Source: an uncultured Pontibacter sp. (GTDB taxonomy: Bacteria > Bacteroidota > Bacteroidia > Cytophagales > Hymenobacteraceae). Taken from it: a stretch of 64,000 bases of DNA. Below the pieces are notes generated by a model. That model was not told the origin of the DNA. It did not search any database and was given only the letters and a program-made list of their open reading frames with translations. The stretch covers positions 1,631,523-1,695,522 of the forward strand of contig NZ_CANMNI010000001.1 in the NCBI RefSeq assembly GCF_947499215.1. The letters are read 5' to 3'. The stretch's first letter is position 1. Every line of letters starts with the position of its first letter. Positions 8,813 to 37,833 of the stretch are shown here, one piece after another. Both the position numbers and the translations under genes were made by a program.

Positions 8813-10111
8813 TTACTTGGTACGCACCTTGTGCCCGGCTATAGCAAAGTACAGGATGAACAAATAGCAAGGCACCATGATCCAGTAAGCCTGCTGTGAG
8901 TTAACAGCATCAGAAAGCGCTCCATAGATTAAGGGTAGAATGGCACCACCGGCTATACCCATGATCAGGAAAGAAGAGCCAATCTTGGTGAAACGCCCCA
9001 GATCAGCCAATGCCAGTGGCCAAATAGCAGGCCACATCAAGGCATTAGCCAAACCAAGCAGGGCAATAGAAAGCACAGACACGTAGCCCTCCGTCATGAT
9101 AGCCGAAATTGTGAATATAATGCCCAACACAGCCGACACCTGCAGCGCCTTCTCCTGCCGGATGAACCTAGGTATGGCCGCGATACCGATCAGGTAGCCA
9201 ACGATCATAGCTACAAGCGTTACAGAGGTGAAGAACTTGGCTTCTGTGAAAGGTATACCTTGCCCATAAGCGGCATAGCTGATGATGGTGTCACCGGCCA
9301 TTACTTCCACCCCCACATACAGGAACAGCGCAAAGGCTCCCATCAGCAGGTGCGGAAACTGTAGGATGCTAGTCTTATTCGTGTTGGCAGCAGCCACTGT
9401 TTCATCCTCCTGATCGGTGTCCACTTCAGGCAGCGACGAGAAGTATATCAGCACGGCCAGCACAATCAGCACACCCACGATCACTAGGTATGGCATGATC
9501 ACTTTCGCGGCCAAAGCGTCCAGTTCAACGGCTTTTTCGGCAGCGCTCATTGCACCTAAGCTATCTACCAACGCATCGGCATTTGAAAGCACAATAGCTC
9601 CCAGCACAATAGGCGCCAGCGATCCGGCCACTTTGTTGAAGATGCCCATGATACTGATGCGCTTAGCGGCACTTTCCAATGGCCCTAGAATCGTAACATA
9701 CGGGTTAGATGCCGTTTGAAGCACGGCTAGACCAGTACCCTGCACAAAGAGACCGAACAGGAAGAGCTCGTAAATTCGAGTCATGGCTGCCGGCACAAAG
9801 ATGGCAGCGCCCACCGCCATAATAAGCAGCCCGACGGACATCCCCCTTTTGAAGCCCGTTTTCTTCAGCACCCAAGCCGAAGGTATAGCCATCACCAGAT
9901 AGGAAATATAAAAGGCAAAGGCTACTAAATAGGATTGGAAATCATTCAGCTCACAGGCGATCTTCAGGTATGGGATCAGCACGGAGTTCAGCCACGTAAC
10001 GAAGCCGAAGATGAAAAACAGGGCACCGATGATGATAATCGAGCGCATGTATCCGCCCGAGGCATTCATCTGCCCGGTTTTGTCGTTAGTGGAAGAGGCT
10101 ACTTTAGTCAT
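8813..10111 (-). CDS. Sugar MFS transporter (FucP/NagP-like)
   Basis: 12-TM protein with FFIFGFVTWLNSVLIPYLKIACEL...; adjacent to GH20 and NagB suggests GlcNAc. Confidence 0.85.
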   Translation of the reverse strand: MTKVASSTNDKTGQMNASGGYMRSIIIIGALFFIFGFVTWLNSVLIPYLKIACELNDFQSYLVAFAFYISYLVMAIPSAWVLKKTGFKRGMSVGLLIMAVGAAIFVPAAMTRIYELFLFGLFVQGTGLAVLQTASNPYVTILGPLESAAKRISIMGIFNKVAGSLAPIVLGAIVLSNADALVDSLGAMSAAEKAVELDALAAKVIMPYLVIVGVLIVLAVLIYFSSLPEVDTDQEDETVAAANTNKTSILQFPHLLMGAFALFLYVGVEVMAGDTIISYAAYGQGIPFTEAKFFTSVTLVAMIVGYLIGIAAIPRFIRQEKALQVSAVLGIIFTISAIMTEGYVSVLSIALLGLANALMWPAIWPLALADLGRFTKIGSSFLIMGIAGGAILPLIYGALSDAVNSQQAYWIMVPCYLFILYFAIAGHKVRTK

Positions 10112-10234: not shown

Positions 10235-12580
10235 TTACTCTACCACAATCTCATCCAACATCAGCCAAGTCTTTTGGCCGGCCGACGGGTACTGGTCCGG
10301 ACTCACCCTCACATTGCGCACCGTTACTTTTACATAGCGGGCACGAGTTAAAGGTATGGTCGTGGCTACTTCCTGCGTCATGATGCCCTCGGCACCGAGC
10401 GGGTTCGGGTCGTCAATCACGTCTACTGTCACGTAGGTTTTACCGTCTACAGACAGGGCGTACTCTACCTGCGTGGGCAGGAATATACGGTAGCCGATGT
10501 GCTGCATAAAGTTCACGCTCAATCGCCTGATGGGCTGTACCTTTTGCAGGTCTATCAAAAACTCGGCATCTCGTTCCAAAAAGCCAACCCAGTTGCCGTC
10601 GTACTGGTCGGTGGAGCCATACAGGCCGTCTACCAGTTTCGATGCTTTTGCAAAGCTTTGATGCGGTGTAGACGAGCGGATAAATGGTTTGTTAAAGGCT
10701 TTGTGCACATCGAACTGGCGGGTGCTCACTTTGCCCACCAACTTGCCGTTCACGAATGAGCCTGCCTTGATAGTAGTGGTTTTGTTCAGCGAAAAAGGTC
10801 CTTTGTATACCTGCGATTTGGCATTTGGCTCATAACCGTCTAAGGTATAGTGGATGGATACGTCTGCTGCATCGGTCTCGAACGTGACGGTTGCCCGGTT
10901 TGCGGCGGTGTCTACCTGCAGTTGCGGACGCACGTTAAAGGCGCTGCGAGCGTAGTTGACACCCATCGCATCGTAGCGCTTGTACTGTTCCTGCATGCGG
11001 TTCTGGAAGCTTTTCCAGTCTTTGAGCTTGGCAGGCGTCCAAAGCACTTCGCTCAAGGCACTTATGCGCGGGAATAGCATGTACTCTATGTGCTCCTCGG
11101 TAGTGATGTACTCGGTCCAGAGATTTGCCTGTGCGCCCAGTATGTACTTTTTCTCTTCGGCTGAAAGCTCGCTTGGCGTTGGGTCGTAGGCGTATACCTT
11201 GGAGAGCGGGTTGTACCCGTGAATGGTAACCGGCTCTAGGTCGCGCTCGCCTTGGTAGTGGTCGAAGTAGAGGGGTGAGCCCGGTGTCATCACCACGTAG
11301 TGCTTTTCTTTGGCGGCCGCTATACCTCCCTTGGTGCCGCGCCACGACATCACGTAGGCGTTCGGTGCCAGACCGCCCTCCAGAATCTCATCCCAGCCAA
11401 TGATGGTGCGGCCGTTCTTGTTCACAAACTTCTCGATGCGCTGCACAAAGTAGCTCTGCAACTCGTGCTCGTCCTTGAGCTTATTGTCTTTGATGCGTTT
11501 CTGGCATTTCGGGCACACTTTCCAGCGGGTTTTCGGGGCTTCGTCGCCTCCAATGTGGATGATTTTGCTCGGGAAGAGCTCCATCACCTCGGTGAGCACA
11601 TCCTCCAAGAAAGCAAACGTTTGCTCGTTGCCGGCGCAGAATATATCCGGAAAAATGCCCCACTTCGACTCTACTTTGTGCGGACCTCCCGTGCACGAAA
11701 GCTCCGGGAAAGCGGCCAGTGCCGCCAGTGCATGGCCCGGCATTTCGATTTCCGGCACCACATTGATAAAGCGCTCCTGCGCATAGGCCACTACTTCTTT
11801 TATCTGTTCCTGGGTATAATAACCGCCGTGGCGGCGCTTGCGGTAGGTTTGCGGCAAGTCCCAGTAGTGACCGATCAGGGTGCTGTCGCGCCATGCGCCT
11901 ACCTCTGTCAACTTCGGGTACTTTTTGATTTCGATGCGCCAGCCTTGGTCGTCGGTCAGGTGCCAGTGAAAGGTATTCAGCTTGTGCATCGCCAAGTAGT
12001 CGATATACTGTTTCACGAACTCCACCGGATAGAAATGGCGGGTAACATCCAAGTGCATGCCACGCCAGCCATAGCGGGGCTTGTCTACAATCTGGAGCGC
12101 AGGTATAAGCGCCGAGCCCGTCGTCTTTTGGGTGGGCAGCAACTGGCGCATGGTCTGTATACCTAAAAAAACGCCGTTGGCTTGTTTGGCAGCCAGTGTT
12201 ATACGGCTTTGGCTTACGTGCAAGGTATAGCCCTCCGCCCCCAGCGTATCGTTTTCGGTCTGCAGGGTCAGGTGTATAATATTCGTGTCCTTTTTCTTGG
12301 GTCTGCGCTGAATAAGCTCCGGTTTATTTCCAGTTGTCTGTTCAATGTGCTGGGCTAAAAACTCGCCTACACGCAGCAAATCGTCGCTTTTGGGATCTAC
12401 ATATACCTTGGTAGACGGCTGCACCAAAAAGCCTCCTTTTTGGGTAGTGAGCTTCACGGGCTGCGGAATAAGCGACAGCGACTCTGGTTTAACCTGTGCC
12501 TGTGCCGGCGACAAAGTGGCTATACCTGTGGCGCAGGCAAAAGAAAGTAAAAGGGCGAAGATATTCTTCCTGAACCTCAT
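10235..12580 (-). CDS. Beta-N-acetylhexosaminidase GH20 with C-terminal discoidin-like (F5/8C) domain
   Basis: GMHLDVTRHFYPVEFVKQYIDYLAMHKLNTFHWHLTDDQGWRIEIKKYP, HIGGDEAPKTRW catalytic DE; signal peptide. Confidence 0.95.
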   Translation of the reverse strand: MRFRKNIFALLLSFACATGIATLSPAQAQVKPESLSLIPQPVKLTTQKGGFLVQPSTKVYVDPKSDDLLRVGEFLAQHIEQTTGNKPELIQRRPKKKDTNIIHLTLQTENDTLGAEGYTLHVSQSRITLAAKQANGVFLGIQTMRQLLPTQKTTGSALIPALQIVDKPRYGWRGMHLDVTRHFYPVEFVKQYIDYLAMHKLNTFHWHLTDDQGWRIEIKKYPKLTEVGAWRDSTLIGHYWDLPQTYRKRRHGGYYTQEQIKEVVAYAQERFINVVPEIEMPGHALAALAAFPELSCTGGPHKVESKWGIFPDIFCAGNEQTFAFLEDVLTEVMELFPSKIIHIGGDEAPKTRWKVCPKCQKRIKDNKLKDEHELQSYFVQRIEKFVNKNGRTIIGWDEILEGGLAPNAYVMSWRGTKGGIAAAKEKHYVVMTPGSPLYFDHYQGERDLEPVTIHGYNPLSKVYAYDPTPSELSAEEKKYILGAQANLWTEYITTEEHIEYMLFPRISALSEVLWTPAKLKDWKSFQNRMQEQYKRYDAMGVNYARSAFNVRPQLQVDTAANRATVTFETDAADVSIHYTLDGYEPNAKSQVYKGPFSLNKTTTIKAGSFVNGKLVGKVSTRQFDVHKAFNKPFIRSSTPHQSFAKASKLVDGLYGSTDQYDGNWVGFLERDAEFLIDLQKVQPIRRLSVNFMQHIGYRIFLPTQVEYALSVDGKTYVTVDVIDDPNPLGAEGIMTQEVATTIPLTRARYVKVTVRNVRVSPDQYPSAGQKTWLMLDEIVVE

Positions 12581-12775: not shown

Positions 12776-14695
12776 CTAGAATTTCCACCTTACGAAAGCC
12801 TCCATGGCCTCGTAGTTGGCCAGCCCCAGGTCGTCGTAGCTCTTGGCGGTATCGCGGTTGCGCTCCTCGGCACGCACCCAGAATTCACGGGAGTCATCGC
12901 CCGGGAACACCGGGCGGTCTTTCTGCGACTGATGCTTGAAGATGGCGTTGCGCTTGCGTTCCACCTCTTGCGGCGACAGCGGTACGGCCATCTCGATTTC
13001 GTGCGTGGCAAACTCGTGCCATGCGCCGCGGTACATCCACAGCCAGCAATCCTTGGCCCACGCTTCGGTTTCGCGGAGTCGGGACAGGGCGGCCAACACA
13101 ATGTTGAAGCAAACGATGTGCGTACCGTGCGGATCGGCAAAGTCGCCGGCGGCGAATACCTGATGCGGCTTTACTTGCTGCAACAGCTCCATGGTCAGCT
13201 CGACGTCGATTTCGGTTACGGGTTTTTTTACCGTCTTGCCTGTTTCATAGAATGGCAGCGCCATGAAGTGGATGTGATCGTCATCCAGACCCGCATAACG
13301 GGCACCCGCGATAGCCTCACTCTTCCGGATAAAGCCTTTCACATCGCGTATCTCCTGCGAGTCGAGCTGGTTGGGCTGTTTGTCTTCCAGGAACGTGCGC
13401 ATGTTCTCGTAGATTTCCTCCAAGTGATCTGTCTCTTTGCCGATGCTCTTGTTGAAGTCCATGGCAAATTCCATGTAGCGCAGCACATCGTCGTCCCAAA
13501 CGGCGGTGTTGCCGGAAGTCTGGTAGGCTACATGCACGTCGTGCCCTTGGTCGACCAGACGGATAAAGGTACCGCCCATCGAAATTACGTCATCGTCGGG
13601 GTGCGGCGAGAAGATAACCACACGTTTCTGGGCAGGCTCGGCACGCTCCGGACGGCGCTTGTCGTCGGCGCCAGGCTTGCCACCCGGCCAACCGGTGATG
13701 GTGCTTTGCAGCTTATTAAAGATGTCGATGTTGATTTCGTAAGCCGTTCCCTTTTCAGTGATGAGCTGGGCCATGCCATGGCTGTTGTAGTCTTCCTCGG
13801 TCAGTTTCAGAATCGGTTTCTGCACTTCTTCGGACAACCAAATCACCGCTTTCTTGATCATGGCATCATCCCACACACAATCTTTCACCAACCATGGCGT
13901 ATTGAAGCGGGTCAGCTCCGAAGCCGCGTCCACATCGAGCACAAACTCTACATTGTCCGACAACTGCAAGTAGGTAGCTGGCACCTCGCTCGACATCTCC
14001 CCCTCCACAGCTTTCTTGATGATCGGCGCTTTCTTACCGCTCCAAGCCATCAGAATGATTTCGCGGGCTTTGAAGATGGTGCCGATGCCCATCGTAATCG
14101 CTTTGCGCGGCACGTTCTCCTTGCCACCGAAATCACGGGAAGCATCGCGGCGTGTCAGGTCGTCGAGCGTAACCAGTCGTGTACCGGAGTTTGGTGCAGA
14201 ACCCGGCTCGTTGAAACCAATATGGCCCGTACGACCGATACCCAGAATCTGCAAATCCAGTCCCCCTACTGACTCGATCTTGCGCTCATATTCCAGACAG
14301 TAGTCATGAATTCTGTCCTGCGGCAGCGTGCCGTCCGGTATGTGCACATTGTTCTTATTGATGTCGATGTGGTCGAACAGGTTCTCGTTCATGAACGTGA
14401 CGTAACTCTGCACCGCCGTCGGCTGCATTGGGTAGTACTCGTCCAGGTTGAACGTGATGACATTGCGGAAGCTAAGGCCTTCTTCGCGGTGCAGGCGCAC
14501 CAGCTCGGCGTATACCTTTACGGGCGTGGCACCGGTGGCAAGACCCAGCACGGCTTTCTCGTTGCGTCCCTGTTTGTATCGGATGAGCTCCGCGATGCGC
14601 TGGGCAACTTTCACGGAAGCGATAAATTCGTCTTGGTAAATGGTAACCGGAAGCTTCTCAAATCGGGTCTCTTCCAGAAGATTTAATCGAGCCAT
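12776..14695 (-). CDS. NagB-like glucosamine-6-phosphate deaminase fused to PIG-L/LmbE deacetylase-like domain
   Basis: N-terminal NagB (ATGATPVKVY, FNLDEYY, GRTGHIGFNEP) and C-terminal PIG-L motif (SPHPDDDVISMGG). Confidence 0.92.
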   Translation of the reverse strand: MARLNLLEETRFEKLPVTIYQDEFIASVKVAQRIAELIRYKQGRNEKAVLGLATGATPVKVYAELVRLHREEGLSFRNVITFNLDEYYPMQPTAVQSYVTFMNENLFDHIDINKNNVHIPDGTLPQDRIHDYCLEYERKIESVGGLDLQILGIGRTGHIGFNEPGSAPNSGTRLVTLDDLTRRDASRDFGGKENVPRKAITMGIGTIFKAREIILMAWSGKKAPIIKKAVEGEMSSEVPATYLQLSDNVEFVLDVDAASELTRFNTPWLVKDCVWDDAMIKKAVIWLSEEVQKPILKLTEEDYNSHGMAQLITEKGTAYEINIDIFNKLQSTITGWPGGKPGADDKRRPERAEPAQKRVVIFSPHPDDDVISMGGTFIRLVDQGHDVHVAYQTSGNTAVWDDDVLRYMEFAMDFNKSIGKETDHLEEIYENMRTFLEDKQPNQLDSQEIRDVKGFIRKSEAIAGARYAGLDDDHIHFMALPFYETGKTVKKPVTEIDVELTMELLQQVKPHQVFAAGDFADPHGTHIVCFNIVLAALSRLRETEAWAKDCWLWMYRGAWHEFATHEIEMAVPLSPQEVERKRNAIFKHQSQKDRPVFPGDDSREFWVRAEERNRDTAKSYDDLGLANYEAMEAFVRWKF

Positions 14696-14731: not shown

Positions 14732-15985
14732 TTATTTGCTTGTATCGATGCGATGCTCAAAAATGCGCTCCATTACGGTGGCCACCGGTCCCAGTATACC
14801 TGCCTCCTGTCCCAGTTTCGACAGCGCGATTTCGGTGCGCTCCCGCAACTGCGTCATGCAATAGGTGTTGATGGATTGCTGAATCGGGGTGGTGAGGTAC
14901 TGCCGCGCCTCGGCCATTTTGCCGCCGATAATGATGAGCTCCGGGTTGAAAAGCTGAATGAGCATGGCGATGCCCTTGCCTAAATTCCGCCCTGTTTCGG
15001 CGAGTATGTTGATGGCGTACTGGTCGCCCTCGTGCGCAGCCTGAATGATGGCCTGCGGTTCAATTTTCTCCAGTTCCTGTCCCGACAGTGCTTTGAGCAA
15101 GGTGTCCTGACCAGCCTGCAGTCCCTCGCGGGCCATACGGGCCAAGGCGCTCCCAGAGGCCACCGTTTCGAGACAACCCCGTTTGCCGCAATGGCACAGC
15201 ACACCGTTGTCAATAAAGGGAATATGCCCGAACTCACCCGCAAAACCGGATGTGCCGAGACGCAATTTTCCGTCCATGATGATGCCCAAACCGATGCCCC
15301 AGTCCAGCGTGAGCACGAGCACGTCGCGCCTGCCCTGCGCCGCACCAAAACGGTACTCGGCCAAGGTGGCGCTCTTCACATCGTTTTGGATGTAGACTGG
15401 TTTATTAAACTTAAGCGCCAGCAAATCCTGTAGCGGTGTTTCGTCCTGACCGGTGAGTAAATAGGTATAGCTGTCGCCCTCTCTGGACGACACAAGCCCC
15501 GGCATGCTTAAGCCAATGCCCATCAGTTTGTCAGCGTCTATACCTGCCGAAAGCACGAGACTGTTGGCATGCTGGTACAGTTCGTCGAGCGCAGTTAGGT
15601 CTTTGGTAAGGCGTATGGGAAAGGTATGGGTACCGGTGATGTTGTTGTTCGTGCCGTCGAAAATAGCCATGTGGGTGCTGAACTTCTCCATCTCGATGCT
15701 TAGCACGAAAAGCGAGTCGTTGCGCAGTCCGTACAGCTCCGGCTTGCGACCACCTACCGATTCACCCCGGCCTTGCTTTTCAATCAGGCCCTCCGTCATC
15801 AACTCGTTGAGCAAGCCCATCGAGGTAGGCGAACTAATGTTGAAACGGTTGCAGATATCAGCATTGGAACGAGCACCCTTTACATAGAGGTGTCGCACGA
15901 TCTTGATTTTCTGCAGATGCTTCTTCCGCTCCACATGGTTCAGCTTCTCCAGATACTCTTCTTCCAATGTCAGGAACGCGCTCAT
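14732..15985 (-). CDS. ROK family transcriptional regulator (NagC/XylR type)
   Basis: N-terminal winged HTH, ROK signature LCHCGKRGCLETVASG, EFGHI. Confidence 0.88.
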   Translation of the reverse strand: MSAFLTLEEEYLEKLNHVERKKHLQKIKIVRHLYVKGARSNADICNRFNISSPTSMGLLNELMTEGLIEKQGRGESVGGRKPELYGLRNDSLFVLSIEMEKFSTHMAIFDGTNNNITGTHTFPIRLTKDLTALDELYQHANSLVLSAGIDADKLMGIGLSMPGLVSSREGDSYTYLLTGQDETPLQDLLALKFNKPVYIQNDVKSATLAEYRFGAAQGRRDVLVLTLDWGIGLGIIMDGKLRLGTSGFAGEFGHIPFIDNGVLCHCGKRGCLETVASGSALARMAREGLQAGQDTLLKALSGQELEKIEPQAIIQAAHEGDQYAINILAETGRNLGKGIAMLIQLFNPELIIIGGKMAEARQYLTTPIQQSINTYCMTQLRERTEIALSKLGQEAGILGPVATVMERIFEHRIDTSK

Positions 15986-37020: not shown

Positions 37021-37833
37021 CTACTTCGAAACCAGCACACTCGCCACCGCCTTCCGCACACTTCCATGCTTCTCCAGTAAAGCAGCAGCCGTTGACTCAT
37101 CAGCACCCGTCTCCGCCATCACCATGCGTACACCGCGGTGATACAGCTTATGGTTAGTTAGCTGCATATCCACCATCTTGTTGCCCCGCACACGGCCAAG
37201 CTGAATCATGACCGTCGTGCTGAGCATATTGAGCACTAATTTCTGTGCGGTTCCGGCTTTCATGCGGGTACTGCCCGTTACGAACTCAGGGCCCACTACT
37301 ACTTCCACTGGATATTGCGCTTCAGCAGCTACCGGGCTTCCGGTATTGCACACGATGCAGCCGGTAGCCAAGCCATACTCGTTGGCCATGCGCAGACCGC
37401 CGATCACGTATGGTGTCGTACCGGAAGCGGCTATACCTACGATCACATCATGCTCATCGAGGCCGTACTCTTTCAAGTCCTCCCAAGCCTGTTCCATGTC
37501 GTCTTCGGCAAATTCCACCGCTTTGCGGATAGCTGTGTCGCCACCGGCTATCAGGCCTACCACCATGTCATAGGGCACGCCAAAGGTCGGAGGGCACTCG
37601 GAAGCATCCACCACGCCCAACCGGCCGCTGGTGCCGGCGCCGATGTAGAACAGGCGGCCGCCTTTTTTCATGCGGTCTGCTACTACTTCAGCCAGCGCTT
37701 CTATTTGTGGGAGCGCCTTTTCAACTGCAAGGGGTACGCTTTTATCTTCTCGGTTGATGTTCTCCAGCACTTCCCTCACCGACATCTTTTCCAAGTTGTT
37801 ATAGTTCGAGTCTTTCTCGGTTGTAATTTCCAT
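37021..37833 (-). CDS. murQ: N-acetylmuramic acid 6-phosphate etherase
   Basis: FYIGAGTSGRLGVVDASECPPTFG, GIAASGTTPYVIGGL, TGSTRMKAGTAQKLVLNMLST. Confidence 0.96.
   Translation of the reverse strand: MEITTEKDSNYNNLEKMSVREVLENINREDKSVPLAVEKALPQIEALAEVVADRMKKGGRLFYIGAGTSGRLGVVDASECPPTFGVPYDMVVGLIAGGDTAIRKAVEFAEDDMEQAWEDLKEYGLDEHDVIVGIAASGTTPYVIGGLRMANEYGLATGCIVCNTGSPVAAEAQYPVEVVVGPEFVTGSTRMKAGTAQKLVLNMLSTTVMIQLGRVRGNKMVDMQLTNHKLYHRGVRMVMAETGADESTAAALLEKHGSVRKAVASVLVSK

Follow-up and report, generated by a model that had tools for sequence, protein, structure and literature searches.

The NagB-PIG-L fusion encoded at positions 12776..14695 is a two-part enzyme common in Bacteroidota, and it probably acts as a bifunctional GlcNAc-6P deacetylase and GlcN-6P deaminase, in which the PIG-L domain would replace NagA. 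Supported by gene context and conservation, this role was the best-supported reading of the sequences compared; it would constitute a non-orthologous replacement of NagA and was not found stated in the literature searched. The deacetylation of GlcNAc-6P, a step usually attributed to NagA, is central to the use of chitin and sialic acid and to cell-wall recycling. Here, the window refers to the whole stretch of 64,000 nucleotides of Pontibacter DNA that was analyzed, and all of its features described below were located on the minus strand.

An intact ATG open reading frame of 639 amino acids occupied exactly this interval, in agreement with the first-pass annotation, which had placed NagB and PIG-L domains in one protein. 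The protein was assigned to the family NF002557 (PRK02122) with 1070.4 bits over residues 5-639, against a cut-off of 384. Both Pfam domains were found above their cut-offs, Glucosamine_iso (PF01182) at residues 29-245 with 69.5 bits and PIG-L (PF02585) at residues 361-536 with 61.1 bits (cut-off 28.2). The NagB (GlcN-6P deaminase) domain spans residues ~15-262 (13910..14653) and aligns with solved NagB proteins, while the PIG-L/LmbE deacetylase-like domain spans residues ~357-639 (12779..13627). They are joined by a family-specific, moderately conserved linker of residues ~263-356 (13628..13909). Mean pairwise identities in the phylum sample were 59% for the NagB domain, 57% for the PIG-L domain, and 51% for the linker. 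GTDB species genomes yielded at least 590 relatives of the fusion, and the nearest, with 93-95% identity, were from Pontibacter. Given these relatives and the NF002557 membership, the fusion belongs to a known annotated family and is not an artefact of assembly or reading. The family, named "glucosamine-6-phosphate deaminase-like protein", has a full-length architecture identical to that of the fusion, with no structural difference, but its name omits the deacetylase domain. No functional study of the NF002557/PRK02122 fusion was found in the literature searched, where subscription journals were thinly covered. An AlphaFold2 model built from 46 close relatives had a mean pLDDT of 66, a pTM of 0.48, and low-confidence active-site loops; owing to this poor quality, the model was left out of the fold search and of active-site geometry.

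The PIG-L/LmbE domain, whose attachment to NagB was also borne out, carries an HPDDD motif at residues 365-369 (13589..13603) and a DPHGTH motif at residues 521-526 (13118..13135). By analogy with PIG-L enzymes, we take His365, Asp368, and, as the third ligand, His526 to be the expected zinc ligands, and Asp367 to be the catalytic residue. Among 147 fusions, His365 and Asp368 were kept in all, Asp367 in 145, and His526 in 146, and both active sites were conserved even in fusions that share as little as 45% identity with the window protein. Since the catalytic residues are kept and conservation is about equal in the two domains, the comparison points to two working active sites. The exceptions in the PIG-L site were second copies in two genomes (L150 in G107 and L152 in G118). 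Both copies carry D367A, and L152 also carries H523N and H526Y; the other copy was intact.

The absence of nagA noted for the window held for the whole host genome (4.31 Mb, 99.99% complete), where the search proposed at first pass was run and revealed no canonical NagA elsewhere. This absence rests on profile and pattern searches. No NagA was identified with TIGR00221 (best score 29.7 bits, cut-off 225.65) or with a profile of 22 Bacteroidota NagA sequences (best score 43.5 bits, versus at least 353 for the proteins that were counted as NagA in the genome sample), and the single match to the NagA motif G-x-H-x-E-G-P was within a dnaK locus and was not a NagA gene. The genome search did not list a B. 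subtilis NagA control at E<=1e-25, hence a NagA could be missed in some of the sampled genomes, while the three independent negative tests lessen this worry for the window genome. No match to NagA was found within the fusion itself by NCBIfam profiles, and the fusion does not belong to the amidohydrolase-type NagA. The reaction proposed for its PIG-L domain is the same as that of NagA (TIGR00221), but the protein families are unrelated; hence the fusion could have the function of NagA without being one. No second NagB was found in the genome, where the fusion is the only one. The genome encodes three other PIG-L proteins, namely a BshB1 that scored above the cut-off, one resembling BshB2/Mca, and one that is probably secreted, as it has a probable signal peptide.

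The fusion is co-linear with three neighboring genes. An HTH-ROK protein resembling NagC (14732..15985; PF00480, 218.8 bits) is encoded 36 bp upstream; it is the only ROK protein in the genome and scored 206 bits with the NagC model, below the cut-off of 650. Downstream are a GH20 beta-hexosaminidase (10235..12580; PF00728, 423.4 bits) and a NagP/GluP-like MFS sugar carrier (8813..10111), which was above the cut-off of TIGR01272 with 332.8 bits and below that of the NagP model (417.8 bits, cut-off 625). The window also encodes an N-acetylmuramic acid 6-phosphate etherase, MurQ (37021..37833; TIGR00274, 332.8 bits, cut-off 302), the product of which is GlcNAc-6P. A second murQ, bringing the total of the genome to two, was found on contig 4 (L175:803-2545) adjoining a BadF-type kinase with weak similarity to the NagK model. 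The host cell thus probably makes GlcNAc-6P through two types of genes, those for MurQ and for a NagK-like kinase.

Similar neighborhoods were observed in relatives. For example, in a NagA-less member of the same order (L103), nagK, murQ, a gene of 193 amino acids (L103:7710-8291, minus strand), and the fusion are co-linear with gaps of at most ~55 bp. In L110 and L123, the fusion and murQ are ~1 kb or less apart, and L105, L106, L111, and L120 have a nagK-like gene close to the fusion. At least one gene of amino-sugar use or cell-wall recycling, counting ROK, NagX, GH20, GH3-beta-lactamase, AnmK, amidase, and NagP genes, was near the fusion in 62 of 80 close relatives and in 30 of 66 phylum-wide loci, these being raw counts. 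The fusion of L102 directly adjoins nagA, beside a gene that by eye resembles a sugar epimerase. Additionally, a short NagB-like gene was found in tandem with the fusion, ~120-140 bp away, in four genomes (G157:C44, G241:C20, G250:C8, and G300:C29).

Among the 148 Bacteroidota genomes of the phylum sample, 56 encoded the fusion. NagA was absent from 43 of these and present in 13, where ten passed the TIGR00221 cut-off and three scored 353-370 bits with the Bacteroidota profile that those three helped build. By comparison, NagA was present in eight of the 13 genomes that encoded only a short NagB (Fisher p of 0.003 strict and 0.016 loose, a descriptive comparison that ignores kinship). In 11 of the 15 fusion-bearing families, NagA was absent from all sampled members. 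MurQ was found in all 56 fusion-bearing genomes, although it was just below the curated cut-off in G090 and G129. With MurQ present throughout, the 43 NagA-less genomes would be left with a gap, which the PIG-L domain could close. The same picture was obtained from a class-level sample of 197 genomes, in which 33 had a match that passed the cut-off for the fusion and 16 had a NagA that passed its own, and where the fusion-bearing mates in the family and the order of the window were without NagA.

The main counter-evidence to a replacement of NagA is the 13 fusion-bearing genomes that keep it. This coexistence might reflect redundancy, or the two enzymes may be used on different sugars. A decay of the PIG-L site in NagA-bearing genomes was considered and rejected, as the sites were intact in all 13. 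In two members of one family that encode both NagA and the fusion (L181:4403-5572 and L182:4328-5449), nagA was judged by eye to lie within a ribosomal run of rplM-rpsI-rpsB-tsf-nagA-pyrH-frr. Also on the side of the counter-evidence, deletion of the ChiUL nagB of Flavobacterium johnsoniae, which may or may not be of the fusion form, had no effect on growth (PMC5127042). The authors credited redundancy with three further nagB-like genes, and the ChiUL NagB protein could not be expressed (PMC5127042). Among the Bacteroidota is also Echinicola vietnamensis. A study of glucosamine utilization in five bacteria reported an involvement of NagA in four of them (panels A-D), and E. vietnamensis was the subject of panel E (PMC9007349).

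Taken at the strength of the sequence comparisons, the proposed pathway would draw GlcNAc-6P from two supplies, imported GlcNAc by way of the GH20 enzyme, the NagP-like carrier, and the BadF-type kinase, and peptidoglycan recycling by way of MurQ. The PIG-L domain would remove the acetyl group from GlcNAc-6P by hydrolysis, using a zinc center of His365, Asp368, and His526 with Asp367 as the catalytic residue, and the NagB domain would then turn GlcN-6P into fructose-6P and ammonia. The deacetylase activity, the phosphorylated substrate, and any channelling between the domains are what we infer from these comparisons, and the zinc ligands are predicted from the analogy. The first-pass annotation had suggested that the C-terminal domain may supply the deacetylase step, and strong indirect support for this came from the NagA-less genome with genes that would make GlcNAc-6P, the PIG-L site in 147 fusions, the mostly NagA-less fusion-bearing genomes, and the nagK-murQ run.

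Alternatively, the PIG-L domain may deacetylate an unphosphorylated sugar, such as GlcNAc, an oligosaccharide, or a muropeptide sugar, after which GlcN, once phosphorylated, would go on to the NagB domain. To our knowledge, the PIG-L enzymes of known function use unphosphorylated GlcNAc moieties, and we know of none that acts on a sugar 6-phosphate. Archaeal diacetylchitobiose deacetylases, to which this alternative likens the fusion, were the solved PIG-L proteins closest to it in sequence. The fusion shares with these enzymes (PDB 8bgn and 3we7) and with BshB the HPDD motif, a distal His, and a PF02585 score above the cut-off, but differs from them in being joined to NagB and in its proposed substrate, a sugar 6-phosphate. 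However, the match to the solved proteins was weak and spanned merely ~50 residues, mostly N-terminal. In addition, the nagK and murQ run fits a phosphorylated substrate, and the GlcNAc-6P made by MurQ in all 56 fusion-bearing genomes would be left without an outlet in NagA-less cells. An unphosphorylated substrate therefore appears unlikely.

In another reading, which is quite unlikely, the appended PIG-L domain has a regulatory or structural function or uses some unrelated substrate, for instance a thiol-sugar precursor, and the fusion would be left as a GlcN-6P deaminase alone in amino-sugar use. The 13 genomes that keep NagA, the loss of PIG-L residues in the two second-copy paralogues, and the service of PIG-L proteins in other pathways of the host cell, as with the separate BshB1, are compatible with such a role. 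In contrast, the catalytic set is almost fully conserved, bacillithiol in the host genome is already covered by the separate BshB1, and 43 fusion-bearing genomes would hold a deaminase and a source of GlcNAc-6P with no deacetylase.

The bifunctional reading also calls for a working GlcN-6P deaminase. The NagB half scored 243.5 bits with the nagB equivalog TIGR00502, against a cut-off of 236.9. The FNLDEYY stretch noted at first pass was found at residues 82-88, within the motif FNLDEYYP (residues 82-89; 14429..14452) that carries Asp85 at the position of E. coli Asp72. The ring-opening loop GRTGHIGFNEP (residues 154-164; 14204..14236) places Thr156, His158, and Glu163 at the positions of E. 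coli Asp141, His143, and Glu148. Alignment to the sequence of the E. coli NagB structure confirmed its difference from GNDGHIAFNEP, with Thr in place of Asp141. Among the 147 fusions, Asp85 was kept in 146 and both His158 and Glu163 in all, and the equivalent of E. coli Lys208 was also kept. In 146 of the 147 fusions, either Val or Ile occupied the position of the allosteric Lys160, and the NagB domain would probably be free of E. coli-type allosteric control. In a fusion of Mucilaginibacter phenanthrenivorans (L092:8001-9917), the catalytic Asp85 is replaced by Asn, and the PIG-L site is intact.

The loop alignment across Bacteroidota that had been proposed as a check was run on the 147 fusions and revealed Thr as the norm at the position of E. 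coli Asp141, with Thr in 122, Ser in 14, Asn in 11, and Asp in none. The loop is hence altered with respect to E. coli, as first described, but ordinary within its subfamily. Asp at this position does not define NagB, as B. subtilis NagB has Asn. The latter, the best-scoring solved relative of the domain, is a purified GlcN-6P deaminase related to the E. coli enzyme, and it is monomeric and free of allosteric control (PMC3648570). Similar to the B. subtilis-type NagB (2bkv/2bkx), the fusion keeps the Asp72, His143, and Glu148 positions, has a residue other than Asp at 141, and has lost the allosteric Lys160; unlike it, the fusion adds the linker and PIG-L, and most members have Thr and not Asn at 141. 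A relationship between the residue at 141 and the presence of NagA was rejected, as the residue follows lineage. Thr156 is a subfamily trait, with no sign of a new substrate in the sequences. The alternative in which the altered loop directs the NagB domain to a different amino sugar phosphate draws on the absence of Asp from all 147 fusions, but it is highly improbable, as a characterized deaminase has Asn at 141, the other catalytic residues are kept, the domain is above the TIGR00502 cut-off, and the genome has no NagB besides the fusion.

A second, divergent family of NagB-PIG-L fusions of ~785-802 amino acids was observed in L162-L164 and L166-L169, with ~25% identity to the window protein and scores below the NF002557 cut-off. 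In its NagB loop, Asp is found at 141 and the Glu148 equivalent is lost (Val, Ile, or Thr), while the His and Asp residues of PIG-L are kept. This form adjoins murQ in L164 (3259-5619, plus strand) and nagB in L168 (5419-7824, minus strand). At least four of the five NagA-less genomes that encoded only a short NagB carried such a ~790-aa protein, and some NagA-bearing genomes carried it as well. The ~790-aa protein may be a parallel case of NagA replacement.

More broadly, PIG-L deacetylases may form a widespread, unrecognized second class of GlcNAc-6P deacetylases in Bacteroidota, a proposal that is plausible if somewhat short of probable. This class would comprise both the fusions and the ~790-aa form with its degenerate NagB, take the place of NagA in most members that carry the fusion, and link the use of chitin and GlcNAc with peptidoglycan recycling. 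If so, pathway predictions that require nagA would be wrong for many Bacteroidota genomes, and many proteins labelled merely as "glucosamine-6-phosphate deaminase-like" would acquire a second activity. Two successive steps would then reside on one polypeptide, and channelling between them would become testable.
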